This document shows positions 6,226 through 53,661 of a stretch of 64,000 nucleotides of DNA, in pieces. The notes under the pieces are model-generated. The model had not been told where the DNA came from. It ran no database searches and worked only from the letters and a program-made list of their open reading frames with translations. The position numbers and the translations under genes are program-made. The DNA is from Polynucleobacter necessarius (GTDB lineage Bacteria; Pseudomonadota; Gammaproteobacteria; Burkholderiales; Burkholderiaceae): assembly GCF_900096765.1 (NCBI RefSeq), contig NZ_LT615228.1:6669-70668 (forward strand), read 5' to 3'. Position 1 is the first letter of the stretch. The number at the start of each line of letters is the position of its first letter.

Positions 6226-6954
6226 ATGCAAAATATTTCAAATAATGAGCCATTGCAGGCCTTTCCTTATGCCGCACCTAATGATGAAATCAAAATAAAA
6301 TATGCTCATATTTTTAAATTAAATGAACCTTTGCCCCTACATTTTCATAAGGTAGTATTTGATAAGTTTGTGGCGATATTATTTCTGTTGATTTCTGCCC
6401 CTATCTTATTGATTCTGAAGCTTGCTTTTTTAGTTGAGGGTTGGATTATTCCCGAAAATGCCGGGCCTATGTTTTTTTATTACAACGGAGTAAGTGCTGG
6501 GGAGATTATTCCTAAATATAAGATTCGACTAATTAAGACTAAATACATAGAGCCTGAGGGGGCTAAACGCCATGATTGGATTGCTTATTCAGCGGAGTGG
6601 ACTCCGGATAGTAGGACCTATGTTGGTCAATTTGTTAAAAAATTCTATCTTGATGAATTGCCTCAGTTCTGGAGCGTACTAAAGGGGGATATGAGTATTG
6701 TTGGACCACGTCCTCTGTCTGTATTGCACTATGAGCGTGACCGAGCCCAGGGGAATGTAACCCGATTTTTGCTACGAGGGGGACTTTTGGGATTGGGCCA
6801 TATTAATAAGGGTACCTCAGAAATGGGTAACCCAGTCTATGAATATGAATACGTGGATCAATATCTCAAACGATCTTCTTTTGGCTTGCTATGCCTAGAT
6901 TTGTGGATTATTTGGAAGGGTATTTTGGTAATTGTTAAGGGCGGTGGTCATTAG
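6226..6954 (+). CDS. Initiating sugar transferase (undecaprenyl-phosphate sugar phosphotransferase type)
   Basis: A 242-residue protein of the bacterial sugar transferase family (PF02397). One membrane segment (about residues 45-70) is followed by the catalytic domain. It shows FYLDELPQFWSVLKGDMS and the VGPRPL motif typical of WcaJ/RfbP/PglC-like enzymes, which move a sugar 1-phosphate onto undecaprenyl phosphate at the inner membrane. The usual basic KFRSM-like motif appears here as KIRLIKTK. The C terminus ends in a short amphipathic stretch. It is the last + strand gene of the polysaccharide cluster and converges, with a four-base overlap, on the damaged gene at 6951-7879. Confidence 0.85.
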   Translation: MQNISNNEPLQAFPYAAPNDEIKIKYAHIFKLNEPLPLHFHKVVFDKFVAILFLLISAPILLILKLAFLVEGWIIPENAGPMFFYYNGVSAGEIIPKYKIRLIKTKYIEPEGAKRHDWIAYSAEWTPDSRTYVGQFVKKFYLDELPQFWSVLKGDMSIVGPRPLSVLHYERDRAQGNVTRFLLRGGLLGLGHINKGTSEMGNPVYEYEYVDQYLKRSSFGLLCLDLWIIWKGILVIVKGGGH

Positions 6955-7879
6955 GTTTTAGTTAAAGCCAGCAATTCTCCAATGGCGGTGGAAAGTTGTC
7001 TTTGAATACTAGTTTGATACCGCATCAAGCGATCAAGTTGATCTAAGTCTGGGGTGGTGGCCTGTTCTTCGATGGGGCCTAACTTATTAAAGTCAGCAAT
7101 TTTTTGTGCGCGCACGATCATTCTCATGATTTCTTGACCGTACCACTCGGCAGCTCGCTTTAATTCTTTTAATTCCACCGCTTTTATACCATCTTCAATG
7201 TTTAATTCTATTTTAGGCTTTTGATTTGCAAAGACTATTTTCCAATTGATGCTTTGCGAGTAGGGTTCACTACCCTCGGGTTTTTGTTTGGGGAATCTTA
7301 TTGGCAATAAACTCACCGATGGTCAGCTCGTTTTTTGTAGCCTCACCAAATAAATACTCACAAAACCTAGGAGTTTTATCTAAAAATTCTTCGTGAGTTG
7401 ATGGTCTCTCAAAATCTACCCAGTAGTTCAGTTCATTACTGATTTCAATCTTTTCTAAAGCTAGAATTTTTTTCCTTACCACCGATTCCCATCGCCAAAT
7501 TTAATGCTAATGATTTAGTCTCTCGATCCATATCAAGGTGCCGGGCAAGTTCATGGTATCCCCGACTTAGTGCTCTGCTGCGAAGAAACTGCACATCGAT
7601 TGTATTTTGTATGCGTTCTAATTGAACATTTAACTTTGCTATACGCTCTAGCTGGATACGAATCAATGGATTCGTAGTTGGGTAGGATTCTTTTAGCTCT
7701 GCTAATAGTGTGTCATATTTATTTTGCTCAGCATCATTTAGCAATCGAGGCGATGTTGCGCCATGCACAATGGCATTTTTTGATGATTTAGCTTTTCCGG
7801 ACTCTGAAATCGGGCCGGTAGAGTTCTTTTTGGGTTTGGCCCTTTGGCTAATATTTTTGCTTTTTTGGTTCAAAGCCAT
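6951..7879 (-). pseudogene. Conserved hypothetical protein broken by two frameshifts
   Basis: Three minus-strand frames together make one protein of about 309 residues. It starts with a Lys/Ser/Asn-rich segment (KNSTGPISESGKAKSSKNA, then IVHGATSP), continues with a helical QLERIAKLNVQLERIQ region, and ends in GELLALTKT. The first break falls at an A7 run (T7 on +, 7467-7473) and the second at an A5 run (T5 on +, 7281-7285). Removing one base from each run restores a single frame. Proteins with this N-terminal layout are often found near integrases, but no function is known to me. It sits directly downstream of the recombinase gene and in the same direction. Confidence 0.75.
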
Positions 7880-7905
7880 GGTATTGATTCCTCAGATATT
7901 GATAA

Positions 7906-8826
7906 CTACATTTGCTCCACATATCGCATTACTGTATCCGTTTTTGACCATCTACCTCGATTCATTATTACGGGCATGCTGGCCCCCTCCCTTACTAAAT
8001 CCTGAGCTGCTCCGACTCGCATAGAGTGGCCGCTGATATTTTTGATAGTAGCGCAATCTAGATTAGCTTTTTTGGCTAATTTCTTATAGATCCGTGGAAT
8101 TTGACCAGCACCTAGATTTCCAGAAATTTGATTTGCCCGGTTAATGCCTCTAAAAATAGGCCCAGAATGAATTTCGCTTTTTGCCAACCATTCTTCCGCC
8201 GCTGCAGTGGCTGACAAAGAAAGATGTAACCATTTTTCTTGGCACTGTTGATCTGTTTTGCTTTTACGTAATTTAATTGAAATAAGTTTATTTTTCCCAT
8301 TCTCCGAAAGGATAAATTTAATATCGTCAATTAATAAATCCACTATTCCGCTTCTTCTGCAAAGGGTGTCATAGGCAACGAGCAACAGTGCTCTATCTCG
8401 AATGCCACGAAGAGAATCATCTGTAGATTTGAGCATTTTATTAAGCACATCTCTATTGATTCCCATGACCTGCTTAGATGACCTTCCCAACTTGCGATGC
8501 ATTCTGCGTATGGCTAGTTGCACATCGCAATCTTTAGTGGGATCTTCAAGGCGATTGAGTTTGTGGATGGTTGAGATTGAAACTAGGATTTGGCGGATAT
8601 AGGCTGATGTAAATTTGCCGTCGCTCAGGCTATCGATATAGTTGCTGACAACGAACGGTTGTGAAGGTAGTGGAACAGTTTGATGTTCATGGCAATAGAT
8701 GATGAAGGTATTGAAATCTGCCTTAAATGCCCTGATAGTTGCAGGCGCATAAGCACCTTCTATTCTTTGCAGAGTTTGGATAAGTAGTCTGGATGCGTTA
8801 TCCTGATGCAGTTGAGCTAATTTCAT
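7906..8826 (-). CDS. Tyrosine recombinase / integrase
   Basis: A 306-residue protein with the two-part layout of phage-type integrases. An N-terminal helical core-binding region (about 1-110) is followed by a catalytic domain. Catalytic residues are visible: the first Arg in the CRRSG segment, the HSMR box near residue 266 (SGHSMRVGAAQDL), a W in the GRWSK segment, and the Tyr nucleophile in MRYVEQM at the very C terminus. It would cut and rejoin DNA through a 3'-phosphotyrosine. It is divergent from an XRE regulator, with a perfect palindrome between them. No adjacent tRNA gene or direct repeats that would mark an attachment site were found. Confidence 0.88.
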   Translation of the reverse strand: MKLAQLHQDNASRLLIQTLQRIEGAYAPATIRAFKADFNTFIIYCHEHQTVPLPSQPFVVSNYIDSLSDGKFTSAYIRQILVSISTIHKLNRLEDPTKDCDVQLAIRRMHRKLGRSSKQVMGINRDVLNKMLKSTDDSLRGIRDRALLLVAYDTLCRRSGIVDLLIDDIKFILSENGKNKLISIKLRKSKTDQQCQEKWLHLSLSATAAAEEWLAKSEIHSGPIFRGINRANQISGNLGAGQIPRIYKKLAKKANLDCATIKNISGHSMRVGAAQDLVREGASMPVIMNRGRWSKTDTVMRYVEQM

Positions 8827-8844
8827 AATTTAAAGAAACTAAAA

Positions 8845-8860
8845 GTGTCAATAATGACAC
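8845..8860. promoter_or_regulatory. Palindromic operator between divergent integrase and XRE genes
   Basis: A perfect inverted repeat GTGTCA-ATAA-TGACAC lies 19 bp upstream of the integrase start and 12 bp upstream of the XRE start. The position and symmetry fit an operator bound by the XRE protein to control both promoters. That is inference from layout. Confidence 0.6.
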
Positions 8861-8872
8861 ATTATATGTCTA

Positions 8873-9157
8873 ATGATTACAGGTGCGCAAGTACGGGCTG
8901 CAAAGTCCCTTATTAGATGGTCGGGATCTGATTTAGCCGATCAGGCGGGGGTTAGCTTATCAAGCATACGCAGGATTGAGGCTTTTGATGGGGTGCCGGA
9001 TTCGGCCAGCGTAAAGGTGCTGCATGCAATTCAGCAAGCTTTTGAAGATGCTGGAGTTGAATTTATTGGGTCCCCAGAAGAGGGGCCAGGCGTTCGTCTT
9101 AAGTTGAAAAAAATAGCTTTTTTGCGAAACGAACTATCTAGTTTGAAGATAGTCTAA
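8873..9157 (+). CDS. XRE-family helix-turn-helix regulator
   Basis: A 94-residue protein. The N-terminal HTH is clear: VRAAKSLIRWSGSDLADQAG then VSLSSIRRIEAFDGVPDSAS (residues 7-46), followed by LHAIQQAFEDAGVEFIG, a tail seen in many short XRE proteins. No cleavage or ligand domain follows. It is divergent from the integrase, with a 16-bp palindrome between them, so autoregulation and control of the integrase are likely. Confidence 0.85.
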   Translation: MITGAQVRAAKSLIRWSGSDLADQAGVSLSSIRRIEAFDGVPDSASVKVLHAIQQAFEDAGVEFIGSPEEGPGVRLKLKKIAFLRNELSSLKIV

Positions 9158-10726: not shown

Positions 10727-11733
10727 CTACGGCACCAAACTTAAAAACAAGTATTCAAAAAAGATAATGAGGTGCACAACTCCTCGCAGCAAAGTAGTTC
10801 TACCATTCCTTGCAGCAAAGTAGTTCTACCAATCGCCAAAGTTAGGCCACCAATAAAGAAGGTTAAATACATCAGCGTCATATTGAGGCTGCTGATACCA
10901 AGACTGAGTGGAAGATTAAAGTAAATTGCAATTGCCGCAATCGTTGGTATAGAGAGTCCAATACTGGCTAATGCTGATCCTAGAGCTAGGTTCAAACTAC
11001 TTTGTAATCTATTGGCTTTTGCTGCTCGCACAGCTGCAAAGCCCTCAGGCAATAGCACTAGCATCGCAATGGCAATACCTACAATCGTTTTGGGTGCGCC
11101 AGCTGCTTTTACTCCTGCTTCAATCGCTGGGCTTAGTAACTCTGCAAGACCTACTACGACAACCAAAGAAATAACCAGCAAAACTACGCTCACTCCGGTT
11201 TTGAGATTACTGGGCTTAATCGCATGAACGTTCATATCCGTTTTATGTTCTTCCGCCTTCGGCAGATAGTAGTCGCGATGACTGACGGTTTGAAAGAATA
11301 AAAATGCTACATAGAGCGCAAATGAAACAATCCCAGCAAAGGCTAGTTGACTCTTAGTAAAGTCAGGACCTGGCGCGCTGGTAGTCACAATCGGCATTAC
11401 CAGAATAAAAGTAGCTAAAGCAGTCAGTACAGCAAGTGATGAGTTGGTACCTTCGTTGCGAAAACTCATTTCATGGTGGTGTAATCCGCCAATGAAAATA
11501 CAAAGTCCAATCACACCATTTAAAACAATCATGACGGTAGCAAAGACGGCATCACGAGCTATAAACTCAGATCCCTCATGACCTGAGAGCATCATGGAAA
11601 TAATGAGCGAAACTTCAATAATGGTGACGCTAATTGCGAGAACTAGTGCACCATAAGGCTCGCCTGTTTTGTGAGCAACGACTTCAGCGTGGTGAACAGC
11701 TGATAGTACTCCGCCAACTAGGGTCATCGCCAT
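10727..11733 (-). pseudogene. chaA: Sodium/calcium-proton antiporter ChaA, C terminus shifted by a 26-bp duplication
   Basis: The protein carries the ChaA/Cax signature twice: AVHHAEVVAHKTGEPYGALVL near the N terminus and LPEGFAAVRAAKANRLQ in the second half. It has about ten membrane segments and exports Ca2+ or Na+ in exchange for protons. Near the end a 26-bp near-perfect duplication (10779-10830) shifts the frame. The present frame ends at 10741 in an odd Cys-rich tail. Removing one unit restores GRTTLL followed by a hydrophobic helix ending SLVP at a stop at 10727-10729, which matches the family. The N terminus also looks short: about 34 upstream codons are open but contain no ATG, GTG or TTG. 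Confidence 0.75.
10779..10830. repeat. 26-bp tandem duplication in the 3' end of chaA
   Basis: Units 10779-10804 and 10805-10830 are identical at 24 of 26 positions. The length is not a multiple of three, so the duplication shifts the chaA frame. Confidence 0.88.
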
Positions 11734-11937
11734 AATGACAATAAACCAAGTTTGACCTGCGAGCTGATGAAGAGAGTCTGCTATATGGATAACTGAAAAG
11801 TAGGAAGTTGATTGAGTTGATTGATTGGCGTTAAGCTACCAAGATTACTAATTACTATTAAGAAGATACCTAGATTATCTAATGATTATGGTGACAGCTA
11901 TGACATTTAGCTGCATTTTTCAGGAATTCATCTCTAT

Positions 11938-12300
11938 ATGAAAGCAATCATTCTGTTTGGCCATGGCGCTCGTGATGCACGTTGGCGTGAGCCCTTTGAT
12001 CGCTTAGCGGATCTGTGGAAGGCTCAGTACCCCAATACTCCGGTAGAGCTTGCGTTTCTGGAAATGATGGCGCCCTCCTTAGAAGAGGCGGTTGGATCAT
12101 TGGCATCTAAAGGGGCTGCCCAAATTTCTGTAGTTTCAGTCTTTTTTGGCCAAGGCGGTCATTTGTGCAATGACTTCCCAGTTTTACTGCAAGCTTGTCA
12201 AGCCAAGTACCCGCAGATTGCCTTAAGCGCGACGACTGCGGTTGGTGAAGATCTGGCCGTCTTGCAAGCGATTGTCGATTTCGCTGCTAGAGCGCTCTAG
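11938..12300 (+). CDS. cbiX: Sirohydrochlorin chelatase, short CbiX type
   Basis: A 120-residue protein, the usual length of the single-domain CbiX-S form. It begins MKAIILFGHGARD, with the metal-binding His in the GHG motif, and has the second-half motif VFFGQGGHLCNDFP holding the other ligand His. It inserts a metal into sirohydrochlorin; beside cobA and cysI, ferrochelation to siroheme is the likely role. It converges on the cobA remnant, and the 3' ends overlap by 78 bp. The gene is intact although cobA, which makes its substrate, is frameshifted. Confidence 0.85.
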   Translation: MKAIILFGHGARDARWREPFDRLADLWKAQYPNTPVELAFLEMMAPSLEEAVGSLASKGAAQISVVSVFFGQGGHLCNDFPVLLQACQAKYPQIALSATTAVGEDLAVLQAIVDFAARAL

Positions 12301-13157
12301 AGTTTCTTCACTATTGATCTGATTATTTCTTAAAGCCTCACCAACCATAATCAGCGCAGGTGAATTACTGTTAAACCACTGATCTGCTTTACCCAGTGCC
12401 AGTTCCTTTAGAGTGCTAGACCATAAGCGCTCACGTTTAGTTGAAACTGCTTCCAAGATCTGCACCGGCGTATCTTGGTGATGATTCTGGTTGGTGCTAA
12501 TGAGTTGCTGCGCAATTTTGGCAGCATCTTTGCGACCCATGTAGTACACCACAAGGTATCTGCATTGGGTTGTGCGATAGGTTGTGAGAATGGCTGTGCG
12601 ATTTTCTGAGTGGTAGGTTGCTTAGAGTTTGCTGTAGGTGCATTCTCGGTAGCTTGTGCTAGCGTTACAAAGGCAACACTTCTGCTAATCCCTCTAAGGG
12701 TAAGCGACTGCTGTATGCTCGCTGCACTAGCTAAGGCTGCAGTAACTCCCGGGACGACTTCAACTGCGATACCCGCAGCTTTGAGCGCCTGGATTTCCTC
12801 ATCGGCCCTACCAAAAAGCATCGGGTCGCCGCCCTTAAGGCGAACAATGATTTGGTATTTTTGCGCAGCATCGACTAAACGTTTATTGATAAATTGCTGA
12901 GCGGAAGAGAGTTTGCCGCAGCGTTTACCGACTGCAACAAGCTGTGCTTGTGGGCAAAGTAAGAGCATTTCTGGGTCAACCAAAGCATCATGAAATACGA
13001 TATCGGCTTGTGCTAATAACTTAGCACCACGCACGGTGATGAGATCTGCTGCGCCAGGACCAGCACCAACTAAATACACCTTACTTGGAGTATCGCTACT
13101 ACCAATTTTGGTATGAGCAGCCTCTGGTGAATTGACGGAGGTATTTGACTTAGTCAT
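12223..13157 (-). pseudogene. cobA: Uroporphyrinogen-III C-methyltransferase, frameshifted
   Basis: The N-terminal part has the tetrapyrrole methylase motifs VYLVGAGPGAADLITVRG, VFHDALV, VAVGKRCGK, VRLKGGDPMLFGRADEE and VEVVPGVTAALA. After a Gln/Pro-rich insertion of about 25 residues the frame breaks near 12553. There the sequence reads CTTGTGGTG where CTTGGTGGTG would be needed for DTLVVYYMGRKDAAKIA, the conserved continuation, which appears in the neighbouring frame up to SPALIMVGEAL. One base has therefore been lost. The family makes precorrin-2 from uroporphyrinogen III with two SAM, the first step to siroheme. The C-terminal tail overlaps cbiX. Only 34 bases separate it from the DUF934 gene. 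Confidence 0.82.
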
Positions 13158-13191: not shown

Positions 13192-13794
13192 TTAGATTGA
13201 TAGTGTTGCCCGTTTATCGCGCCAGGTATTTTGCATAGTTACGCTAAACAAATCGAATTGCTTAAGTGCTACATCAAGTTTTTGATCGGGGCGTAGGGCA
13301 AAGCTATCAAAGCCAACACGAGCGCCTTGCAATAGCTGGTCGATCAATACATCACCAATCGCGCGGATTTCCCCAGTCCAGGCAAAACGATCGCGTAATA
13401 GCGCGGCAGTACTGAAGCTTCTACCATCTCTAAAGATAGGAAAGTGCGCTGCAACGAGTGGCCACACTTTTTTACCTGCTTCGATTACATCAGCATGCTT
13501 GAGGATGTCATCATCAGCAGCAAACCAAACGCCAATCTGACCGGCCTTTGCTTTTGATTGAATATCCGCTTCTTTATTGTGAGTAATCCACCAAGAAAAC
13601 GGTACCAATACTTTACTCTTGCCGTGCTCTAAGTCAGGGAGTTGAAAATTCGCACCTTTATCTTCGTCTTTATTAACATCGCCACTCCAAATGAACCATT
13701 CATTCGGGCCTAAGCTAGGCTTTTGTCCTTTGGGAAAATGCACGATTTGCTCATGGGCTGCAATCACATTGCTGCTGTTATTGGTTTGGCTCAT
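13192..13794 (-). CDS. DUF934 protein associated with sulfite reductase
   Basis: A 200-residue protein with the DUF934 signature in its C-terminal half: FPIFRDGRSFSTAALLRDRF, then GEIRAIGDVLIDQLLQGARVGFDSFALR. DUF934 genes in betaproteobacteria normally follow cysI and are thought to help sulfate assimilation, but no reaction is established. The start overlaps the end of the cysI remnant by four bases, so it was co-translated with it. In relatives cysH, cysD and cysN usually follow; here cobA follows directly. Confidence 0.85.
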   Translation of the reverse strand: MSQTNNSSNVIAAHEQIVHFPKGQKPSLGPNEWFIWSGDVNKDEDKGANFQLPDLEHGKSKVLVPFSWWITHNKEADIQSKAKAGQIGVWFAADDDILKHADVIEAGKKVWPLVAAHFPIFRDGRSFSTAALLRDRFAWTGEIRAIGDVLIDQLLQGARVGFDSFALRPDQKLDVALKQFDLFSVTMQNTWRDKRATLSI

Positions 13795-15519
13795 GATGCA
13801 TCTTCTCCCGATTTGGCTGTTTCGGCCTTTTCTTTCTTCTTGGCGTTCTCGTTTTTATCTTTATAGGTGGCCTCTTTAAATGGTGCCACTCCAAGTCGGT
13901 TGTAGGTGTCAATAAAGGCTTCGCCTTCATTGCGCTGCTCTACATAAGTATTGATGATGTTACTCATCACATCGGGGATTTCATCAGCGTAAAAAGAAGG
14001 CCCAATCACTTTGCCAATGGCAGCATCATTGCCTTGCTCGCCACCTAGGGTGATTTGATACCACTCTTCACCATCCTTATCGACGCCAAGTACGCCAATA
14101 TTACCAACGTGATGATGACCGCAAGAGTTAATGCATCCAGAAATATTCAAACTAATGTCGCCTAGATCAAATAGGTAATCCAGATCATCAAAGCGCTCTT
14201 GAATTGCTTTAGCAATTGGCAATGACTTGGCCATTGGCTAGCGAGCAAAAATCGCCGCCTGGGCAGGCAATGATGTCAGTTAGCAAGCCCACATTAGGCA
14301 GTGCTACTTTTTGCTTTTTCGCTTCTTGCCAGAGTTCATAAAGCTGAGATTGCTCGACATCTGCTAGCACTAAGTTTTGTTCATGCGTAGCACGCAGTTC
14401 ACCAAAACTATATTGATCGGCCAGATCGGCAATGGCCAGCATCTGCGCTGTTGTGGCATCACCAGGCGCTACTGAACCATGAGGTTTGAGCGACAAAATC
14501 ACACTGGCATAACCCGGTACTTGGTGTGGTTTGACATTGCGCTCTAACCATCTTGCAAAGGCTGCTTTTTCAGCATCGCTTGCCAGATTAATCACTTGCT
14601 CATTACTGAGTGCTGGCAAGCTCTTATAGGCAGGCTTTGTAAAGTGTTTGGCAACGCAATCCCACTCTGCTTGTGTAAAGTTATCGTCACCATTCTTGAT
14701 ATGTAACCACTCACCTTCGACTTGCCTTGCGAATTCTTCTGGGCTTAAAGCCTTAACCAAGATCTTGATACGCGCTTTATAGAGATTGTCCCGGCGACCA
14801 AAGCGGTTATAGACGCGCAGTAATGCTGTTAAGTAGCTTGGTAGTAATTGCCATGGCAAGCCAGTTTTAATCAGCGATCCCAAAATCGGTGTACGCCCCA
14901 TACCACCACCAGCATAGATGTCAGCTAACAGTTCACCTCGGGCATTTTTCTTGAGCTCAATACCCACGTCATGGCAAAGCAAAATAGTGCGGTCTTCTTT
15001 TGCGCCATTAATCGCAAATTTAAATTTACGGGGCAGGTGAGCAAACTCCGGATGCAATGTTGACCATTGACGTAGTAACTCACAGATCGGACGTGGGTCT
15101 ACGTATTCATCGCCAGCAACTCCAGCAAACGCATCGCTCATAATATTGCGAATGCAGTTGCCTGATGTTTGGATGGCATGCATTTCAACTTTGGCAAGCT
15201 CAGCCAAAATATCGGGCGTGTCTTCTAGTGTGACCCAGTTGTACTGAATGTTTTGACGGGTAGTGAAGTGACCATAACCACGGTCATATTTTTCAGCAAT
15301 CAGCGCCATGGTGCGCAATTGTTTGGAATTAAATAAGCCGTAGGGAATAGCAACGCGCAGCATGTAAGCAAGGCGTTGGTGATAAAGACCATTCTGGAGT
15401 CTTAGTGGACGAAACTCTTCTTCAGCCAAACTGCCGTCAAGGCGTCTTGATACCTGGTCTCGAAATTGTGCAACCCGTTGATCTACAAGGGTTTGGTCAA
15501 TGTGGTCATATTTATACAT
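13791..15519 (-). pseudogene. cysI: Sulfite/nitrite reductase hemoprotein subunit, frameshifted
   Basis: The first 430 residues show the ferredoxin-type sulfite reductase layout: YGLFNSKQLRTMA, FTTRQNIQYNW, TSGNCIRNIM, GGMGRTPILG, and the first siroheme/[4Fe-4S] cysteine pair in ACPGGDFC. Then the frame fails at 14231-14232, where one extra base turns the expected LANAKSLP into a stop. The next frame continues AKSLPIAKAIQERF and carries the second cysteine pair in SGCINSCGHHH. Corrected, the protein would be about 575 residues. It reduces sulfite to sulfide with six electrons. As it stands neither piece has all four cluster ligands, so the enzyme should be dead. Confidence 0.85.
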
Positions 15520-19558: not shown

Positions 19559-21749
19559 ATGACTAAGAGTGGTGCAAGATTGATTGTGAGACGGCGGTGG
19601 ACCGCCTCCTTATTTTTTTACTTGTTCGACCTTGCTGCTGCTATCAACTAGTTTGATGGCACAGATTGCACCATCCCTTAATTACGATCAGAAACTGAAT
19701 GATATGGTAGTCAATGCCACTCGTTCGGAGACACCCTTAGATCAAATGTCGCTCAACACCACGATATTGACCAAAGAGGTCTTGGAGTCTTCACCAGATC
19801 AAACCATCGATCAAGTATTGAAAAATGTTCCGGGCGTATTTTTAAATGATGTGCCTTATTACCAAAAAGACCCCACCGGATAAAGTATTAACGTGCGCGG
19901 TTTAGGTTATGGCCGCACTCTAGTCTTGATTGATGGTTTGCCCGCTAACGACGCCTTTTACGGAACGGTGCAATGGAATCTGGTTCCCATGTCATCGATT
20001 GAGTCGGCAGAGTTTGTCCGGGGAGGTGTCTCGAGTCTGTATGGTAACTACGGTATGGGTGGCGTGATTAATATCAATACCAAGACGCCCAAAAATAGTT
20101 CCCAGGATGTCTCTGCAAGTTATGGATCATTTGGCACTGGCAACGTCGCTGCCTCAAAAGACTTAATTGTTTCTGATGGCATGCAGATGCGCTTTTCAGC
20201 AGATTACTTTTCAAGTGAAGGCTTTCAGAACTACGCCACGATTTCACCGGGTTCGTCTAGTAATATTAAAAATGGTATGGGCACGGATGCAGTTAAGAAC
20301 TCCAATATTCGTTTGCAAAATTACTTTAAGCCCAATCAAGATACCACCGGATTTTTAAGGCTGGGCTACAGCACGATGGCCGATCTGAGTACCAACTATG
20401 CTATAGCGCCAAACTTAGTTCAGACTGCTGATTTTGCTGCTGGCTCCACAACAAAATTAGATGTCGATAAAAAAGCCCAAGTAAATGTGTACTACCAAAA
20501 CACCAATTTCTACAAGCAAAGCGGTTCTACCTCAACTACTGCCCCTAATAAGAATCAACCTTACGTCAACGCTAATTACACCGACCCTTATTCAACAGTA
20601 GGGGCCTCGGCACAATACACTCATGATCTCAAGGGAGCGGGCATTGACCAATATATTCTAGGTGCTGATGCGCGCAATATTTCTGCATCGAACTTAACGA
20701 ATAATCTCAATAGCAACGGTAGTGGTTCTGTGACTTCGGTGAACTATGCACAAGGCCAACAAAACTTTTATGGCCTATTGGGTCAATTAAAATCAACTGC
20801 TAGTGCATTTCCGCTAGAGACAACACTTGGTGCCAGACTAGATTTTTGGAATAGCCAGACTCCAACCCTATATAACGCTGGAGTCAATGGCGCTAATCCG
20901 ATTTATCAAAATATTCCTAATAAAAGCAAGACTCAGCTCAGCCCTTCTTTAGGTTTTGTATATAAGGCCACGCAGAACTGGGATTTGCGAAGTGCAGCCT
21001 ATCAAGCATTTCATGCGCCCAGCATGAATAACACCTTACGTAGTTATGGATCTACTTCTGGAGGTTACTTTTTTGCCAACCCAAATTTAACGCCAGAAAC
21101 AATGACGGGTTATGAGGTGGGTACAGACTATCGCTGGAAGGAAGGTTTTGCGCAGTTCACCGCATTTAATAATTACATTCAGAATGCGATTACGAGTTAC
21201 AACCTCTCGACTGCTAGTGACGCAGCTTTAGCCAGTAGTCTATGTGCATCTGCTGGCAATCCACAGGGCTGTAGTTTGGGTAAGGTGAACTATTACACCA
21301 ACCAGCAAAATTTATTGAGCCGCGGTATTGAAATGCAGTATCACCAAGACATTAATCCACATTGGGGTGTTGATGCCGGTTATGCCTATACCAGCACGAT
21401 CTTGACATGGAGTGCTACGACAGACCCCATCAATACACAAGTTGGTGGTGTTCCTAAAAATATGGCTAATGCTGGGATTACATATTACCCTGTGCCACAG
21501 GCTAGCCTAACAACCACAGTGCGTTATGTTGGTAACTCTTGGATGGCTACGGGGTCCTTGCCGGTTCCTGCATATGCAGTAGTGGGATTAAAAGCAAACT
21601 ATCAAGTAACACCCCAAGCCTCAGTATTTGCATCGGTAGTCAATTTGTTTAATCGTCAATATGTCACATTTAATATTGCTTCGCAGGCAACCGCTTATCA
21701 AGCTGGCATGCCGCAAGCCATTACTGTTGGGGCGCGTCTAGTCTTTTAA
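19559..21749 (+). pseudogene. TonB-dependent outer-membrane receptor with a frameshift and a nonsense codon
   Basis: The plug domain (LNDMVVNATRSETPLDQ, then INVRGLGYGRTLVLIDGLPAND and RGGVSSLYGNYGMGGVINI) and the barrel ending ITVGARLVF mark a TonB-dependent receptor of about 730 residues. Two lesions are seen. At 19613-19619 a T7 run breaks the signal peptide: with T6 an ATG at 19559 gives a basic RRR region, a hydrophobic core and a cleavage site near LMAQ. At 19881-19883 a TAA stands where CAA (Gln) would give the usual DPTGQSINVRG. The substrate cannot be read from the sequence; siderophores, cobalamin and copper are typical for the family. Confidence 0.85.
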
Positions 21750-21887: not shown

Positions 21888-23114
21888 ATGAAACTCAAAA
21901 CCATTCATTCATTGATGTTCGCTGCAGGTATGGCAGCTGCCAGCTTTGCTAGTGCGCAAGCTCCAGCACCAGCCCCAGCCTCAGGTATTCCGCCAACATG
22001 GGCGCAAGGTAGAACGCCTGATGGTATGAACCCTTCATTGGCCCCAAACCCTCCTGGAATTTCTGCGATGCCTGCAGATGAGATTCCGGTGAGCAAATTA
22101 AAAGTACCTGCTGGTTTCAAGATTGAATTGTGGGCATCCGGTATGCCGAACGGACGATCAATGACAGAGTCACCCAGTGGCACGGTTTATGTTGGTACAC
22201 GTTTTACTGGCAATGTTTATGCGGTAGTCACAAAAGATGGCAAGCGGGAAGTCAAAACCATTGCTAAAGGTTTGCATCGTCCAAACGGTGTTGCTTTTGC
22301 CAATGGCTCACTCTATGTTGCTGAACTCTCGCGCATTATTCGTTACGACAATATCGAGAAAAATCTGGATAACCCACCAGCACCAGTAGTGGTGTTTGAT
22401 GCCTTACCTAAAGATGAGCCACATGGTTGGAAGTTCATGACTTTGAGTCCAGATGGGCAATATTTGTATTTCCAAATTGGTACACCAGCCAATATCGTGG
22501 TGCCACCATCAACTCACGCAACAATCGTACGCTTAAATCTCAAGACCAATATCTTAGAGACCGTCGCAACCGGTGTGCGTAACAGTGTGGGTATGGATTT
22601 CCAAAAAGGAACCAAGGAGCTTTGGTTTACCAACAACGGTCGTGACTGGGTTGATGAAAATATTCCGAACGATACCTTGAACCGCTTGGTGCGCCCAAAA
22701 GGGATGAACTTTGGCTACCCACATTGCCATCAAGGCGATTTTTTGGATCCGGAGTTTGGCAAAGGTCGTTCATGCGATGAGTTTGATAAGCCCGAGATGA
22801 AGTTGGGTGCTCACGTGGCTGCCTTGGGTATGCGTTTTTATAACGGCAATATGTTCCCAGCAGAATACAAAGGCAATATTTTTATCGCTGAGCATGGCTC
22901 ATGGAATAAAACCAAAAAGACCGGTTATCAAGTGGTTCGTGTTGTTTTGGATGGCAAGAACAAGCCAGTCAAACTCGAGCCATTTGTTACTGGCTGGCTA
23001 GAGGGCGAAACTTTCTGGGGTCGTCCAGTTGACGTGCAAGTACTCAAAGACGGTTCCATGTTGGTTTCTGATGATGAAACTGGCGCAATCTTCCGCGTGT
23101 CTTACGGCAAATGA
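21888..23114 (+). CDS. Periplasmic PQQ-type sugar/sorbosone dehydrogenase-like protein
   Basis: A 408-residue protein with a signal peptide (AAGMAAASFASAQ) and then an Ala/Pro-rich linker. The rest is a six-bladed beta-propeller of the soluble glucose/sorbosone dehydrogenase kind: LKVPAGFKIELWASGMPNGR, LHRPNGVAF, ATGVRNSVGMDF, LWFTNNGRDW, MNFGYPHCHQGDF, IFIAEHGSWNKT and SMLVSDDETGAIFRV. Such enzymes oxidise aldoses with PQQ as cofactor. The stop overlaps the ATG of a diheme cytochrome c (ATGA), which is the expected electron acceptor. Confidence 0.82.
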   Translation: MKLKTIHSLMFAAGMAAASFASAQAPAPAPASGIPPTWAQGRTPDGMNPSLAPNPPGISAMPADEIPVSKLKVPAGFKIELWASGMPNGRSMTESPSGTVYVGTRFTGNVYAVVTKDGKREVKTIAKGLHRPNGVAFANGSLYVAELSRIIRYDNIEKNLDNPPAPVVVFDALPKDEPHGWKFMTLSPDGQYLYFQIGTPANIVVPPSTHATIVRLNLKTNILETVATGVRNSVGMDFQKGTKELWFTNNGRDWVDENIPNDTLNRLVRPKGMNFGYPHCHQGDFLDPEFGKGRSCDEFDKPEMKLGAHVAALGMRFYNGNMFPAEYKGNIFIAEHGSWNKTKKTGYQVVRVVLDGKNKPVKLEPFVTGWLEGETFWGRPVDVQVLKDGSMLVSDDETGAIFRVSYGK

Positions 23115-23720
23115 AATTGATTGCTAGCACTAAGGCCATCCTCGGGGTGGCCTTTTTTTACTTCTCTTAGTTTGGTGTTGTTCTCTTCAACGGTTTTTGC
23201 TGCGCCACCGGATGCAGTTGCCGGTAAAGCAAAAGCACAAACCTGTTTTGCCTGTCATGGTGAAAACGGCATTGGTATTTTTGGCGAGATTCCGAATTTG
23301 GCTGCGCAACCCGCACTTTCCATTACCTATCAGTTGATTCAGTTTCGAGGTCAGCAGCGCAAGGGCGGGGCAATGGAGGCGCTTGCCGCCAGCTTAAGTG
23401 ATCAGGATATGCGCGATATTGCTGCGTATTACGCTGCGCTGCCACCACCTCCGGCAAAATCAGGCAATGCCAATTTAATTGCTAAAGGCCAGCAAATCTC
23501 CAATAATCAATATTGCAACTCCTGTCATGGTGCTCAGCTGCAAGGGCAAAAACACATTGCACGCTTGGCAGGACAGTCTTCGGAGTATGTGGTGACCCAG
23601 CTCAAAAACATTCGGTCAGGTAGCCGAATTGATATGGATGGCACAATGGGAAGTGCAGCGCGCAATCTAAGCGATGAAGATATCGAGGCGATTGCTGCTT
23701 ATGCTGCCTCTCTAAATTAG
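23111..23720 (+). pseudogene. Secreted diheme cytochrome c, signal peptide frameshifted
   Basis: Two CxxCH heme sites are intact, CFACH and CNSCH, each followed by a class-I cytochrome fold ending in the helix MRDIAAYYAAL and then IEAIAAYAASL. The natural start is ATG 23111, overlapping the dehydrogenase stop. From it MKLIASTKAILGVAFF runs into a stop because of a T7 run at 23153-23159. With T6 the frame joins TSLSLVLFSSTVFAAPPDA, a good signal peptide. A chance TTG start at 23121 gives the same mature part with a poor n-region. Electron transfer from the coupled dehydrogenase to the respiratory chain is inferred. Confidence 0.82.
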
Positions 23721-23743: not shown

Positions 23744-24833
23744 TTGCAGACTAAAAACCATTTTCTTCTTGTCGATTTTTTTAAAGACCTTTGCTGCCTT
23801 AACGATCATTGCGCACCACTTCTCTAGTTATGGGCAGATTGCGCAAGATGCCCAGCAACTATTGCCAGGTTTCATGACATGGTTATTTGAGTACGGACGC
23901 TATGCAGTGCAAATCTTTTTGGTCATGGGCGGCTATCTTGCTGCCCAGTCGCTCACCCGCACTACTGAGCTTAAAAATCCACGTAATGTTCTCAAGGTGG
24001 TTTTCAATCGCTATCTACGTTTGTTTGCGCCTTATGTTGTCGCTTTAACCATCACCATTGTTTGTGCTTGGGTTGCGCGCTTTTGGGTGCAAGACGAGTT
24101 TGTGGGCGAGTCAGAAACGCTTGGCCAGTTTTTGGCGCACTTGTTCTTCTTGCAAGGTATCTTGGGCTTAGATTCCATTTCTGCTGGCGTTTGGTATGTA
24201 GCCATTGATTGGCAGCTCTACGCAATCCTAGTCACCATGCTGGGTATGTTCCCTGGTTTTCGATCGGCTGTGTGGATGCTGACGGTGCTGTGCGTAGCTT
24301 CACTGCTGTACTTCAATCGACTGGGCGCTTACGAAAACTATTTCATTTATTTCATAGGTGCTTATGGCCTTGGAGTATTAGCGCAACTTTGCAAAAATTA
24401 TCCAGACCCCGTAGTCAACCGTTTTGCCAGAATCTTCATGGCAGGTATCGGCATTGTGATTGTGGTTTCAAGCTTTCACCAAGTTTGGCTTCGAAACATC
24501 TTGGCTTATCTGGTGGCACTGGCTTTAATTTTTTGGGGAGATTGGGCTTACAAGGATCAAAAGCAAGAGCACCAGCGTCCTCAGCATCAATCCAAAATGC
24601 ACGAAGTTGTCAATGTCATTTTGTGGGGCAGCAGAAGATCTTACTGCGCATTCTTAATCCACTTTTCTTTTATCTTGCTCGCCAACACTTTGTATATAGG
24701 ATGGGGCATGAGTTTGCGTCACGATGGTGCGATGGCGCTCGCACTCATGTTTATGGCGATAGCCGCTAGTTGGATTGCTGCTAATTACTTATATCGCTGG
24801 GTTGAAGTGCCTGCGCGCAGGATCAAGCTTTAA
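23744..24833 (+). pseudogene. Acyltransferase 3 family membrane protein, frameshifted near the N terminus
   Basis: Motifs of the acyltransferase 3 family (OafA/NolL type) are clear after the break: LKTFAALTIIAHHF, the FLVMGGYLAAQSL segment, NRYLRLFAPYVV, and about ten membrane helices. The frame breaks at a T7 run at 23776-23782. With T6, a TTG start at 23744 gives LQTKNHFLLVDFLKTFAAL, the usual family opening. These proteins transfer acyl groups, often acetyl, to surface sugars. The 3' end overlaps darP by four bases in convergent orientation. Confidence 0.78.
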
Positions 24834-29460: not shown

Positions 29461-29512
29461 AAAAAGTATTAAAAATATTTAGGCCAAAAAAGTATTAAAA
29501 ATATTTAGGCCA
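29461..29512. repeat. Perfect 26-bp tandem duplication upstream of livH
   Basis: Units 29461-29486 and 29487-29512 are identical; the second ends six bases before the livH ATG. Each unit holds an AT-rich core that could act as a -10 element, so the duplication may change spacing or copy number of a promoter or ribosome-binding region. Confidence 0.9.
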
Positions 29513-29517
29513 ATCAT

Positions 29518-30396: not shown

Positions 30397-32331
30397 TGAT
30401 GAAATTGAAGTCTTCTATTCCTCTTTTAATTGCTATTGCTGCTCTTTTTGCATTGCCGCTAGTAATTCACAATCCTTATTACATTCACTTAGCTGAAACG
30501 ATTCTGATCTATACCATTCTCTTGTTTGGTTTAGATATCGTCGTGGGTTATGTTGGTCAGGTCTCTTTGGGCCATGCCGCTTTGTTCGGTATTGGTTCAT
30601 ATACCGCTGGTATTTTGTTCTTCCACTTGGGTTGGCCAATTTGGGCAACGATTCCAGCCTCAATTATTATTACTTCGATTTTCGGTGGCATCCTCGCGTT
30701 TCCGGCTCTCAAGGTGATCGGACCATATTTAGCGATGGTGACCTTGGCATTCGGAACCATTGCGCAGATTCTCATTAACGAGATGACTTGGTTGACTGAA
30801 GGTCCATTGGGCATCAAGTTAACCCGTCCAGAGTTGATAGGCGTGCCAATGACCAAGGCTGAGTATTTCTGGTTAGTGTCTGCCTTTGGTATCCTGGCCT
30901 TGATCGTGATCGACCGCTTTGTTAAATCCCAAATGGGGTCGTGCATTTGAAGCCTTGCGTGATAGCCCTGTTGCTTGTGACTGTATGGGCGTATCTGTAT
31001 ACCGTTTCAAGGTGATCGCATTTGTCATCAGCGCAGCATTTGCTGGATTAGCTGGTTGCTTGTACGCTTACTCCGAGCAGTACATTTCTCCAAATACCTA
31101 TAACAACAACGAATTGGTTGTTCTCTTCTTGCTCGGCATCATCATGGGTGGTCGTAAGTCTCGTTTGGGTGCCATTATTGGCGCGGCCATCATTGTGTTG
31201 TTGCCAAAGCTCTTGGACGATATCAATTTGTTCCGTATTGTTGCCTCGATTATTGCAATCGTGGTGGTGGTCGGTGCAGCAGTGGCCTTGTCTAAGAAGG
31301 TTACTACTCCAAGACGCGTGGCAGTTCCGATTGCTGGTGTAGTTGGCTTGGCTGCCTTCTCGTTCTGGCTTAATAGCATTTCTGACTGGCGCTTGAGTAT
31401 CTTCGGCTTCATGATTTTGTTGGTGGTTTACTACTTGCAAAACGGTATCGTTGGATTTGCGAAGAGCTTCTACCAATCTATTGTTGGCAAAGCGAAAACT
31501 GCTCGTGGCGGTGACGCTGAAGCCGTGGATGATTCCATCAGCTTTATTAGTGCCGTTGGTAGTAAAGATGCCGGTGCAGAGCTTCTTAAAGTGGACTCAG
31601 TATTGATGCAGTTCGGTGGCTTGAAAGCCTTGAATAACGTTGACCTGAGTATTAAGCGCGGCACGATTCATGGCTTGATTGGACCAAACGGCTCTGGTAA
31701 GAGCACCATGATGAACGTGTTGACTGGTATTTATGTGCCAACTGCCGGTAACGTTTTATATGCAGGACAGAGCGTGGTTGGTAAGACTTCATCTGATATC
31801 GCTTTATCCGGTATTGCCCGTACTTTCCAAAACGTCCAGTTGTTTGGTGAAATGACAGCGATTCAGAATATTTTGGTTGGCTTGCATCATACCTTTAAGT
31901 CGAACATGCTCGAGATCGCATTGCATCTGCCGCGCTACAAGCGTGAAGAGGCGGAAGCACACGCTCGTGCTATGGCTCTTCTCAAATTTGTTGGCTTAGA
32001 TGATTTGGCTAATGAAGAAGCGCGTAACTTGCCATATGGTAAGCAACGTTTGCTAGAGATTGCTCGTGCATTGGCACTCGACCCCGAATTGCTCCTCTTG
32101 GACGAGCCAGCTGCGGGCTTGACCGCTCCAGACATCAAGGAACTCTTGCGCATCATTCGTAAGATTCGTGATAACGGAATTACCTTCATCCTGATTGAGC
32201 ATCATATGGATGTGGTGATGTCGGTTTGCGATACCGTTTCTGTATTGGACTTCGGTCAGAAGATTGCGGAAGGTAAGCCAGCTGAAGTTCAGGCTAACGA
32301 GAAGGTGATTCATGCCTACTTGGGTACTTAA
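30396..32331 (+). pseudogene. LivM-LivG fusion (permease plus ATPase), frameshifted in the permease part
   Basis: Starting at ATG 30396, LivM helices run to VKSQMG, where a G4 run at 30935-30938 shifts the frame to a stop at 30950. With G3 the EAA loop reads KSQMGRAFEALRDSPVACDCMGV and continues in frame into the rest of LivM. It then passes, without any stop, into a LivG ATPase: Walker A GPNGSGKST, the signature-like LPYGKQRLLEIARAL, and Walker B LLLLDEPAAGL. One polypeptide of about 645 residues was intended. Permease-ATPase fusions of this kind occur in Burkholderiales. Now the ATPase part has no obvious start of its own, so the transporter is probably lost. Confidence 0.85.
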
Positions 32332-37401: not shown

Positions 37402-37474
37402 AATAGAAAATGATCATACGCTAGTAAGTGTCGGAATTTTTAGGGTTAATAAGCTTTGCTTGTAAGATTTCTAG

Positions 37475-37698
37475 ATGGATGCACAAGCTCTCGAAAAACT
37501 CGTTCTCATGAAAATGCCTTTTGGTAAGCATGCTGGACGTGCCCTGGCAGACTTGCCAGGAAACTATTTAGCCTGGTTTGCACGTGAGGGATTTCCCAAA
37601 GGCGAGCTTGGTCAATTCTTGAGCTGATGCATGAGCTTGACCACAACGGCTTACGAGGTTTGCTCGCTCCAATTCAGAGAGCGCATGGCCTCAAGTAA
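37475..37698 (+). pseudogene. DUF3820-like protein, frameshifted
   Basis: From ATG 37475 the sequence reads LVLMKMPFGKHAGRALADLPGNYLAWFAREGFPKGELGQ, the DUF3820 core, then stops at 37625-37627. The neighbouring frame carries the family's C-terminal part (LMHELDHNGLRGLLAPI) up to the stop at 37696-37698. One base seems to have been lost near 37616-37619. The intact protein would be about 75 residues; its function is unknown. Confidence 0.78.
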
Positions 37699-40772: not shown

Positions 40773-41790
40773 ATGACAAACTACTGGCTAAGCTCAGCGT
40801 ACCAAACGCTTCAAACGAGTTCCGATGGTAAATTGCTCGTCACAGATGATTTTTTGCGGACCTACCTTAGCAGGCCTGAATTAAGTTTGGTACCAGAATC
40901 TTGTGCGGCCGAGAAATCTCTCCATCAGCATTTATTAAGCAACCCACGCTTAGCAGTGACATCCGCTGATATTGAGGCCCTGGCCGATGCAGATATTCAG
41001 GAGAATTACCGGATATGGTTACGTTTCCGAGAGCGTCTATTGGCAGCAGGCTCATTGGAAAGTTTTTATATGAGCCTTTTTAAAGGGGGAGGCGTAGATG
41101 TGCCACCCTTATTTGTAAGTCAATTGGCGCAGATTTTCGTGAGGCATATTTTGGGTGAGCAGGCTCACCCATTAGAAGCTAGGGCTGGGGAGATCTTCTT
41201 TAGAACTCAAAAAATTACTGTTTTAGAAGACAGCATCGTGATGGCGGCTGATGAGGAAGTTGTCACTCGTAATGCACAAGCGGTCGAATCCGGAAGCATT
41301 ATGGATTTACTCAAGGGTAAATCGATGTTGATGAGATCAACCGATCTAGACGTTCTCTATGAAGAAAATGCTGAGGAATATTGGGCGCGCAATGAGGGCT
41401 TTGATTTTGCTGTCCAGCTCAATTTTGGACATGAGCCAATCACGTATTTTTGCCGTGTACTGGAAAAGTGGATTCTGCATTTTTTAGGGGCTCAAGTTCG
41501 CATTACCCCCCATGCAGCAGATCAATGACCCTAAGTGGTCGTGGCATGTGGGGCTCGATGCAGCGGCAACTGAGATTTTGAACAAGCTTTATCAAAAAGA
41601 GCCCATAGAGCTTGATGAATTAAAGCGGGTGATTTGCTTATTTCGTCTCGATTTTATAGATGAGTCTATTGTGGTCAATGCGCAGCGAGGTAAACCAGTC
41701 TATATGGCTATTGCCATGAATGAACAGGGGCAATTAAAGTTAAAACCACAAAATTTGCTATTTAATTTACCGCTTGCGAAAGCTTCTTAA
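40773..41790 (+). pseudogene. DUF6352 family protein, frameshifted
   Basis: ATG 40773 gives MTNYWLSSAYQTLQ. The DUF6352 layout follows: RPELSLVPESCAAEKSLH, then NYRIWLRFRERLLAAGSLESFY, and LEKWILHFLGAQVRITP. The frame breaks at a C6 run (41506-41511) and the remaining 90 residues, NDPKWSWHVGLDAAATEILNKL up to KLKPQNLLFNLPLA, are in the next frame. With C5 the protein would be about 338 residues, the family length. Function unknown; the gene is common in betaproteobacteria. Confidence 0.82.
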
Positions 41791-44406: not shown

Positions 44407-44814
44407 ATGCCTAAACCAAAAGACCTTATTGAATTAAGCTATCTGAGTGAAGCGGTCTCAGATATGTCTTTTTTGGGATTGATGCGCTTACTTGAGTCTG
44501 CAAGAGCTTTTAATCAACAGCACGGTATTACCGGCATTCTCTTTTATGACAACCAACAGTTTGGTCAAGTGATTGAAGGCGAGCGTGCCAATATCATGAA
44601 GGTATGGAAGCGCATACAGGAAGATGAGCGCCATCATCGCATTGAGCTGTTAGAGATTCGTGAGATTACTGAGCGCAGCTATCCGGAATGGTTGTTGCGC
44701 TTTTATGGCGGCGAAACACTGATTAAGGACTACCCGGTTTTAGCTGGCCTGGTTGGTGGTATGGATAAGCACAGTTTGGCTTTACTCAATAAAATGCGTG
44801 CTGCAGCGATCTAA
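44407..44814 (+). CDS. Stand-alone BLUF-domain blue-light sensor
   Basis: The ATG at 44407 gives 135 residues, of which about 95 form a BLUF domain: LIELSYLSEA holds the flavin-contacting Tyr, ARAFNQQHGITGILFYDN the Asn, and QQFGQVIEGE the Gln that flips on illumination. A second conserved stretch is VWKRIQEDERHH and the end EIRE-ITERSYPEWLLRF. The C-terminal 45 residues (KDYPVLAGLVGGMDK) form a short cap, as in PixD/BlrB-type proteins. FAD binding and blue-light sensing are expected; no output domain is fused. Nearest neighbours are icd and msrP, but no shared target is evident. Confidence 0.9.
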   Translation: MPKPKDLIELSYLSEAVSDMSFLGLMRLLESARAFNQQHGITGILFYDNQQFGQVIEGERANIMKVWKRIQEDERHHRIELLEIREITERSYPEWLLRFYGGETLIKDYPVLAGLVGGMDKHSLALLNKMRAAAI

Positions 44815-44879
44815 GGTTCAGCTTAGCAATAAATCCCTTTCAGTAGCAAAATAGCCGTATTACTTAGCTGGGGTATGCC

Positions 44880-45839
44880 ATGCGTTTTATTGACAAAACC
44901 ATTCTTTCAAGCGACATCACGCCAAAAGCCGTTTTTGAAAATCGTCGTGCGCTCATTAAAACAGCGGCTGCTGGTGGTTTTGGTGCAGCTCTTGTCCCTT
45001 GGTTTTCTAGAGAGGCTTTGGCGGTATCCCCGGAAAAGCTATCTGCAACTCCAAATACGGCTTATGGCAAAGAAGAAACCACGCCATATAAGTATGTAAC
45101 GAGTTACAACAACTTTTATGAGTTTGGTACAGATAAAGCGGATCCCGCCTCACATGCGGACAGTTTGCAAACTCGCCCATGGACTATATCGATTGAAGGT
45201 TTGGTAAAAAAGCCCATTACCCTAGATATAGATGCCTTGCTCAAGATTGCCCCAATAGAAGAGCGTATTTATCGTATGCGTTGTGTTGAGGGTTGGTCTA
45301 TGGTGATTCCATGGGATGGCTATTCACTCTCTAAACTCATCAATAAAGTAGAGCCCTTATCTTCAGCTAAATACGTAGAATTTATCTCCTTGGCTGATCG
45401 AAAGCAAATGCCGGGAGTATCAAGCAATATCCTCAATTGGCCCTATCGCGAAGGCCTGCGCATGGATGAGGCGATGAATCCTTTAACCCTATTGACTTTC
45501 GGTTTGTATGGTGAGGTGTTGCCAAAGCAAAACGGGGCTCCAGTGCGCATTGTGGTGCCTTGGAAGTATGGCTTTAAGAGTGCTAAGTCCATTGTCAAAA
45601 TTCGTTTTACTGAAGAGATGCCCAAGACAAGTTGGAATCAATTTGACGCTCGGGAGTACGGTTTTTATTCCAACGTCAATCCTGCAGTTGATCATCCACG
45701 CTGGAGTCAGGCCATGGAACGGCGCATTGGCGATCCCAAGGGCGTCTTTGCGCCAAAGATTAAAACCCAATTATTTAATGGTTATGCCGATCAAGTTGCC
45801 AGTATGTACGCAGGTATGGACTTGAAAAAGTATTATTAA
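44880..45839 (+). CDS. msrP: Protein-methionine-sulfoxide reductase, catalytic subunit MsrP
   Basis: A 319-residue protein of normal length with a Tat-type N terminus ([20 protein letters not shown]). The molybdopterin-binding domain is complete: [28 protein letters not shown], the ligand Cys in [10 protein letters not shown], and [21 protein letters not shown]. MsrP repairs oxidised methionines in periplasmic proteins, with electrons from the membrane protein MsrQ. Its usual partner gene is about 7 kb downstream in this window and is frameshifted. The coding sequence itself is intact. Confidence 0.93.
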
Positions 45840-49836: not shown

Positions 49837-49851
49837 TAACTCAATAGTACT

Positions 49852-50067: not shown

Positions 50068-50233
50068 AGATTTCCTTAATTGAGTGCTTAGAATAGCAAA
50101 TTACGCTTAAAACTGATAGTAATAAATGGGGAAGCTTATACCCTGGGCAAGTCTGATTTTGAGTAAGTGATGTGCATCTGCAAAAAGCCTGGAATGATTT
50201 ATAGTCATCTAAAAATACAACAGAGGAGACAGT

Positions 50234-50731
50234 ATGCAACTAAATATCAACGGTCAAATCCATCAGATTGACGTAGAACCCAATATGCCCTTGTTGTAGG
50301 CTATCCGGGAAGTCATTGGTCTTACTGGGACGAAATATGGTTGTGGCGTCGCCCAGTGTGGTGCCTGTACTGTGTATATGAATGGTGAGCCAGTTCGCTC
50401 TTGTTCTATTCCAGTTTCTGCTGTAGGCGCTGCCAAAATTACCACTATCGAATCTCTCTCTAAAGATAACTCTCATCCGGTACAACAAGCTTGGATTGCT
50501 CTAGATGTTCCTCAGTGTGGTTACTGCCAATCCGGTCAGGTGATGGCCGCTGCTGCTTTGCTTAAAAGAAATCCCAAGCCAACCGATGTGGATATTGATA
50601 ATGCGATGTCCAATATTTGTCGTTGCGGCTCTTATCAAAAAATCCGGGACGGTATTCATGTTGCCTCTGGCCAGAAAAAATTAGCAGAAGTGTTGGCGCA
50701 ATACCAAGCTTCTCCTGCAACTCGTGGTTAA
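50234..50731 (+). pseudogene. iorA: Isoquinoline/xanthine-type dehydrogenase small [2Fe-2S] subunit with an amber codon
   Basis: From ATG 50234, with GAGGAGA upstream, MQLNINGQIHQIDVEPNMPLL is followed by TAG at 50297-50299, where relatives have Trp (TGG). In the same frame the rest of the protein is perfect: [18 protein letters not shown] (first cluster), [12 protein letters not shown] and [16 protein letters not shown] (second cluster). An internal ATG at 50372 would omit the first cluster ligands. The family moves electrons from the Moco subunit. A single G to A change explains the stop. Confidence 0.85.
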
Positions 50732-50741
50732 GGAGAGGACG

Positions 50742-52958: not shown

Positions 52959-53068
52959 GGCATCGTTTTCATCGTCATTTTTCTTCCCCCTTCTTTCTTT
53001 TTTATAAACAACTCTACTGAACATGCAAGAAGACTTGTAGATTGAGTAGGGTCGTTTAACATGTGTGA

Positions 53069-53661
53069 ATGAAGCATCACAAGAGCGCACTCTTTCTAAT
53101 CTCCTTATTGCCTGCAGTGCGTTTGCTCTGGCTTGCTTATTACGACGATCTAGGTGCCAATCCAATTGAGTTTATGACACGGTCGACGGGCACCTGGGCG
53201 TTAGTTTTCTTGTGCATCACGCTAGCAATGACGCCATTACGAGTCATCACGGGTTCATCATCTTGGATTTTGATGCGTCGCATGTTTGGACTCTTTTGCT
53301 TTTTTATGCCAGCATCCATTTTCTGATTTGGTTTTATTTAGATCAGGGTTTGGATATACAGGTAATGTTGCATGATGTGATCAAGCGCCCCTTTATCACG
53401 ATGGGTTTTATCACTTTGCTTTTATTGTTACCACTGGCGCTGACATCTAATCGTTATTCGATTCGTTTGCTTGGAAAACGTTGGACTGTTTTGCATCGAT
53501 TGGTTTATGTCATTACCTTTACGGCAGTCATTCATTACTGGTGGCACAAGGCAGGTAAGAATGATTTACAGACAGTGTTGATTTATGCAGGCGTGATTGC
53601 TGTGTTGCTCGTATCCCGCATTTCTTGGGTCAAAAGCTGTATTGGGCGCCGTCAGTCCTAG
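53069..53661 (+). pseudogene. msrQ: MsrQ heme-binding membrane subunit, frameshifted
   Basis: ATG 53069 starts with MKHHKSALFLISLLPAVRLLWLAYYDDLGANPIEF, then RSTGTWALVFLCITLAMTPLRV and MRRMFGLFCFF, the MsrQ opening. At 53300-53305 a T6 run replaces the T7 needed to read FCFFYASIHFLIWFYLDQ, whose continuation is in the next frame through LHRLVYVITFTAVIHYWW to RISWVKS. One base was lost. MsrQ is the quinol-oxidising, heme b partner of MsrP. msrP is about 7 kb upstream and intact. Confidence 0.85.

Follow-up and report, generated by a model that had tools for sequence, protein, structure and literature searches.

The window, a 64,000-base stretch (bases 6669–70668) of the one-contig genome of a freshwater Polynucleobacter (G000; 1,825,583 bases, ~1.83 Mb), very probably comes from a lineage in recent genome erosion, in which dispensable genes are being lost to young, gain-biased lesions, the bacterium is probably host-restricted, and a lineage-specific change has probably come on top. 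Selection would no longer maintain many dispensable genes; in our sample, young inactivating mutations are scattered chromosome-wide, and the genes examined for translation, gyrase and topoisomerase are undamaged. The mutational input is biased to gains, mostly tandem duplications of 1–26 bases, unlike the loss-dominated decay of G017, a second eroded member of the genus. The absence of MutS and MutL may let slippage products persist, and a further change in DNA metabolism, specific to this lineage, probably shifts the balance towards duplication. Erosion most likely began when the lineage became host-restricted, and a recent endosymbiont, as suggested by the first-pass annotation, is its likely context.

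The window was compared with eight relatives of 1.9–2.2 Mb, which are regarded as free-living solely on the intactness of their genes; sizes of only 1.7–1.8 Mb also occur in several further near-complete Polynucleobacter genomes. The gene order of G014 (2.16 Mb) is largely collinear with that of the window genome. The decay of G017 (1.55 Mb) is evident from its ABC ATPase matches, several of which are partial or carry stops, and at dS ~2.4 this genome is not close to the window genome. Lesions were detected with a purpose-written frameshift-tolerant protein-to-DNA aligner in genes backed by at least three of the eight relatives. Breakage of window genes was scored by majority vote in the gene body, leaving out the 15 terminal residues on either side; no gene in the initial 10.7 kb is common to three relatives, and this part of the window lies outside the test. 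The genome sample consists of the window and 20 further stretches scored against G014 genes, and lesion sizing beyond the window rests on this single reference genome; the G014 counterpart of one sampled stretch (L122) is almost absent. Paralogues and overlong reference ORFs, which were among the initial raw lesion calls, were removed by filtering.

Lesions in the gene body break 9 of 55 testable window genes, whereas the identical test gives 1 of 536 for the eight relatives (0/76, 1/67, 0/79, 0/81, 0/56, 0/63, 0/66 and 0/48). The same test finds 28 of 57 genes broken in G017, and a larger comparison 81 of 303. Broken genes number 46 of 362 in the genome sample, about 4–5 of these calls being probable artefacts upstream of true starts that stem from overlong reference ORFs (for instance at window positions 44799–45836, where a stop is seen with G014 only, one of eight references). 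Under a stricter rule the sample holds 41 frameshifts and 9 stops in 333.5 kb, and the lesions are spread over the chromosome. The share of broken genes is thus well above that of intact relatives, both in the window and in the sample, as expected of host-restricted erosion. Together with the lack of excess divergence and the sparing of essential-type genes described below, these counts support the earlier suggestion of young pseudogenes in an eroding genome.

Twelve genes or loci of the window had been listed as lesioned in the first-pass annotation, and comparison with relatives bears out ten of them. The frameshifting duplication in chaA, the one-base gains in cysI, in a T run of the acyltransferase, in a G run of livM-livG and in a C run of the DUF6352 gene, the one-base losses in the DUF3820-type gene and msrQ, and the nonsense codons in the TonB receptor and iorA were all recovered as proposed. 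The lesion in cobA also stands, although its direction had been misread: the supposed single-base loss is a 2-base gain. The features of the window are as follows.

10730–11772, minus strand: Na/Ca exchanger family gene (chaA), in which a 26-base tandem duplication disrupts the frame close to the 3' end; the second copy is missing from 6/6 aligned relatives.
12226–13082, minus strand: cobA-type tetrapyrrole methylase, frameshifted by a 2-base gain (8 relatives aligned).
13803–15519, minus strand: cysI-type sulfite/nitrite reductase, one-base gain (8 relatives aligned).
19614–21746, plus strand: TonB-dependent receptor, nonsense codon ~100 residues in (6 relatives aligned).
23111–23717, plus strand: cytochrome c, apparent frame change of uncertain placement in the signal-peptide region.
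23744–24830, plus strand: acyltransferase, T run at codon 12 extended by one base (4 relatives aligned).
29461–29513, no strand assigned: exact 26-base tandem duplication outside the compared genes, one of 14 with units of at least 12 bases in the 464-kb sample.
30396–32328, plus strand: livM-livG fusion gene, G run extended by one base (7 relatives aligned).
37428–37695, plus strand: DUF3820-type small gene (Pfam name QSregVF_b), one-base loss (7 relatives aligned).
40773–41787, plus strand: DUF6352 gene, one-base gain in a C run (6 relatives aligned).
50234–50728, plus strand: iorA-type [2Fe-2S] subunit, nonsense codon at residue 22 (7 relatives aligned).
53069–53634, plus strand: msrQ-type ferric-reductase-like gene, one-base loss (7 relatives aligned).
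61667–62814, minus strand: moaA-type radical-SAM gene, whose start region carries, near 62765, a 14-base tandem duplication relative to G014.

The moaA-type lesion is an addition to the original list; it puts the usual start out of frame, and an alternative start is possible. Among the best 119 of 1334 other matches to the TonB receptor, the closest outside the window genome has 90% identity, and 117 are at least 697 residues long, the two shorter ones lying on contigs of less than 3.5 kb. The signal-peptide region of this receptor, where a T6-to-T7 gain had also been proposed, fails to align with relatives. The apparent frame change in the cytochrome c gene falls within the first 15–25 codons, and its placement varies with the reference used. 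Judged by family names, the affected functions would be consistent with real loss: siroheme synthesis (cobA) and sulfite reductase (cysI), and likewise molybdenum cofactor (moaA) and a molybdenum hydroxylase subunit (iorA). Elsewhere in the genome, a GTPase frame of 454 residues that we take to be cysN (G000:C1:146676-147266) is open despite the broken cysI.

Synonymous sites are saturated even relative to the closest relative (dS about 1.9). At the protein level, the mean identity deficit in the window is 0.009 for 11 broken genes and 0.014 for 43 intact ones (p = 0.70). Since the broken genes are no more diverged than the intact ones, the lesions are young or, for single ones, errors; the same comparison rejects older pseudogenes. 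Intact window genes carry 274 lineage-unique amino-acid changes at outgroup-conserved sites versus 154 in G117 (p = 7e-9), assuming that both lineages are about equally related to the outgroups. The identity deficit relative to G108 is 0.021 both here and in G046. As G046 trails G108 as far as the window lineage does, the acceleration of protein evolution in this lineage is modest and not unique to it.

If the lesions were mainly long-read consensus errors in the form of spurious single-base gains, the genes would be intact in the living cell. Sequencing methods can produce a bias to +1 gains, so the bias seen here could stem from the method, and the normal divergence of the broken genes is also what such errors would leave. 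The distribution of lesions among genes argues against it. A ribosomal region has no lesion in 27 genes (16.2 kb). In 17 further genes (about 35 kb), namely nine from two synthetase families, five further ones from a translation GTPase family, gyrA, a second gyrA-family gene that is presumably parC, and a type IA topoisomerase, there is no stop and the frames are open at about the length of the relatives. These 44 essential-type genes (~52 kb), a selected subset of essential genes, are thus spared, as expected under erosion: they contain no lesions versus 7.7 expected at the sample rate (Poisson p = 4e-4) and no single-base indels versus 3.6 expected (p = 0.03), although for +1 gains alone the difference (0 versus 2.5 expected) reaches just p = 0.08.

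Genes broken here also tend to be broken in G017. Among 161 shared genes, 12 of the 17 broken here are broken there, versus 30 of the 144 intact here (odds ratio 9.1, Fisher p = 5.8e-5); an earlier, smaller sample gave 11/16 versus 27/110. This link is not significant for genes with single-base indels alone (3/5, p = 0.07) or with any +1 gain (3/6, p = 0.12), which leaves some room for consensus errors. The lesions are also clustered by gene, 62 raw lesions falling in 49 genes versus 55.8 expected at random (p = 0.003). Sparing of the essential-type genes, co-breakage with G017 and clustering therefore make assembly error an unlikely and poor explanation of the lesions as a whole; individual sites could still be errors. 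The presence of nonsense codons and of multi-base duplications and deletions also speaks against consensus error as the main source, and we consider it highly improbable. Two genes of the sampled stretch L112, a PIN/PhoH gene (3815–5494) and an aminotransferase (13446–14702), are 96% identical to G014 and carry three and two frame-breaking gains, respectively, which are either very young lesions or errors.

The proposed bias to gains holds for the whole genome sample. The sized frameshifts comprise 28 gains and 13 losses here versus 30 gains and 82 losses in G017 (p = 4.5e-6), as determined with one pipeline and the same references; with more G017 sequence, the latter become 33 gains and 100 losses (p = 1.2e-6). 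Single-base gains and losses stand at 16:7 in this genome and at 18:68 in G017 (p = 2e-5). The bias refers to event counts, as deletions of 53 and 163 bases outweigh all gains in letters. Deletion-biased decay, a usual but not obligatory trait of erosion, is thus not observed by number. The gains had been ascribed to short homopolymers, and some indeed lie in T, G or C runs, but most +1 gains are in runs of 1–3 bases, as judged by eye. The frequency of runs of at least 6 bases is within or near the range of the relatives (compared without a statistical test). As long runs show no clear shift in frequency and most gains are multi-base duplications or lie in short runs, we rejected a homopolymer-specific process as the principal cause.

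By eye, gains of at least 4 bases are head-to-tail copies of the adjoining sequence, and at the sites of the 8–26-base duplications in broken genes the reference has no such repeat. The gain bias is therefore better named short tandem duplication, of 1–26 bases, than homopolymer gain. A programmatic test for tandem character of gains of at least 2 bases was positive for 11/12 here and 13/15 in G017; as it carries little weight for 2-base units and fails to tell the two genomes apart, we rely on reference-free counts. A reference-free search for exact tandem duplications with units of 12–60 bases found 14 in 464 kb here (two of which, in L125 near 18350, overlap and may be one event), a 5.1-fold excess over the eight relatives (9 in 1,520 kb, p = 1.3e-4) and also more than in G017 (3 in 480 kb, p = 0.007). 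Units of 8–11 bases show a 1.8-fold excess over the relatives (p = 0.01; versus G017, p = 0.06), and exact duplications with units shorter than 8 bases show no excess. The genome thus has the excess of short tandem duplications that a duplication mutator would produce. Of the out-of-frame duplications with units of at least 12 bases, the 464 kb of this genome contain 7, the 1,520 kb of the relatives none and 580 kb of G017 one. For in-frame duplications with units of at least 8 bases the excess is not significant (16 in the 464 kb here, 32 in the 1,520 kb of the relatives; rate ratio 1.6, p = 0.12), and weaker purging may therefore be part of the cause. Judged by title and abstract opening, none of the papers surveyed deals with short tandem duplications in bacterial pseudogenization, and the accessible text of PMC11784200 and PMC3914690 does not mention them either.

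Slippage typically yields gains of 1–2 bases. No match to the mutS (mutS1) and mutL families was found in any of the four whole genomes searched (G000, G014, G046 and G017), and the same searches were positive in 11 and 14 of 14 control genomes, respectively. Loss of mismatch repair in this lineage alone is thereby rejected. The absence of both genes is not the specific cause of the bias, because G014, G046 and G017 lack them too; it may permit slippage and cannot explain the contrast with G017. An absence of mutS and mutL is also described, in the accessible text of PMC5644125, for 20 genomes of the PnecC clade, to which the window genome may or may not belong.

One account on this basis invokes no special mutator: slippage is frequent throughout for want of MutS and MutL, free-living species purge its products, and the present species has stopped doing so. 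The absence of both genes from all four genomes, the slippage-like 1–2-base gains and the lack of a significant rise of in-frame duplications agree with this account, which we regard as possible though rather doubtful. G017 shares the absence and is more decayed, yet it is loss-biased and has no excess of tandem duplications, and the 8–26-base duplications in broken genes arose, by eye, at sites without such a repeat in the reference. Alternatively, the two genomes might differ in age only, with one shared spectrum from which fresh duplications collapse or blur with time, so that the older pseudogenes of G017 show fewer of them. The instability of tandem duplications and the more advanced decay of G017 favour this account. 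New duplications, however, should keep arising in its large neutral fraction, and the reversal of the +1 to −1 ratio is unexplained by collapse of long duplications; we consider a pure effect of age unlikely.

The nature of such a change may be sought among topoisomerases. De novo tandem duplications of 2–19 bases are described for the E. coli topoisomerase I mutator topA R168C in the accessible text of PMC6954433, and small duplications for hyper-cleaving type II topoisomerases of yeast and human in that of PMC11477040, where the word gyrase does not occur. We therefore compared the topoisomerases of these genomes. The type IA topoisomerase is intact, with no striking change, and no equivalent of an R168-type change was seen in it; this sole type IA match scores below the topA cut-off. 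GyrA (G000:C1:1046043-1048634, L231) has Cys where the E. coli protein has Arg99 (R99C). This site lies 23 residues away from the catalytic tyrosine, and 32/32 other loci from 31 genomes, mostly the best 30 of the 61 genomes searched, have Arg there. GyrA also has a 3-residue insertion in the C-terminal half, and both changes are absent from three aligned relatives. R99C is only a candidate, because deeply conserved GyrA sites carry 7 changes in this genome, R99C among them, and 5 in G017 (G046 and G014 have 3 and 1). That a change in gyrase, perhaps GyrA R99C, or in another topoisomerase made this lineage a duplication mutator that loses genes more by duplication than by deletion is a speculative and improbable reading. 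If true, a duplication mutator would be a natural, mutation-driven route into genome reduction.

Among the closest known systems are the eroding Polynucleobacter necessarius-type endosymbionts that live in the ciliate Euplotes, which belong to the same genus and have reduced genomes and many pseudogenes scattered among conserved neighbours. The window lineage is gain-biased, unlike the loss-biased G017, and its host association is putative. Bacterial genome reduction is usually explained by drift and a deletion-biased mutation spectrum. The erosion itself is of a known kind; its indel bias goes against the usual trend and is not the same in the two eroded genomes compared. Within one genus, these two genomes, analysed with the same pipeline and references, thus have indel spectra that by number point in opposite directions, and out-of-frame tandem duplications are in excess in the younger of them. 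Should reads confirm the lesions, this genus with its many intact relatives would allow the origin of indel bias at the onset of erosion to be tested.

Recent onset and many young pseudogenes are shared with Sodalis pierantonius SOPE, which is marked by insertion-sequence expansion according to the accessible text of PMC3914690. The de novo head-to-tail duplications resemble those of E. coli topA R168C, there a laboratory mutant with a known cause (PMC6954433), to which the window genome has no obvious equivalent change. They also resemble those of the hyper-cleaving type II mutants, which in the accessible text are mostly of 2–4 bases and dependent on end joining (PMC11477040).

The remaining lesions of the original list, two gains in A runs at 6951–7879, lie in sequence with no relative among the loci compared; one of its two ORFs is also unmatched in plasmids and viral contigs. 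The region 6951–8826 is probably a variable island. Two orphan ORFs that match no Pfam family lie here alongside a phage-integrase-family gene and adjoin a low-GC stretch (positions 1–8000 of the window, GC content 0.34–0.35 versus about 0.45).
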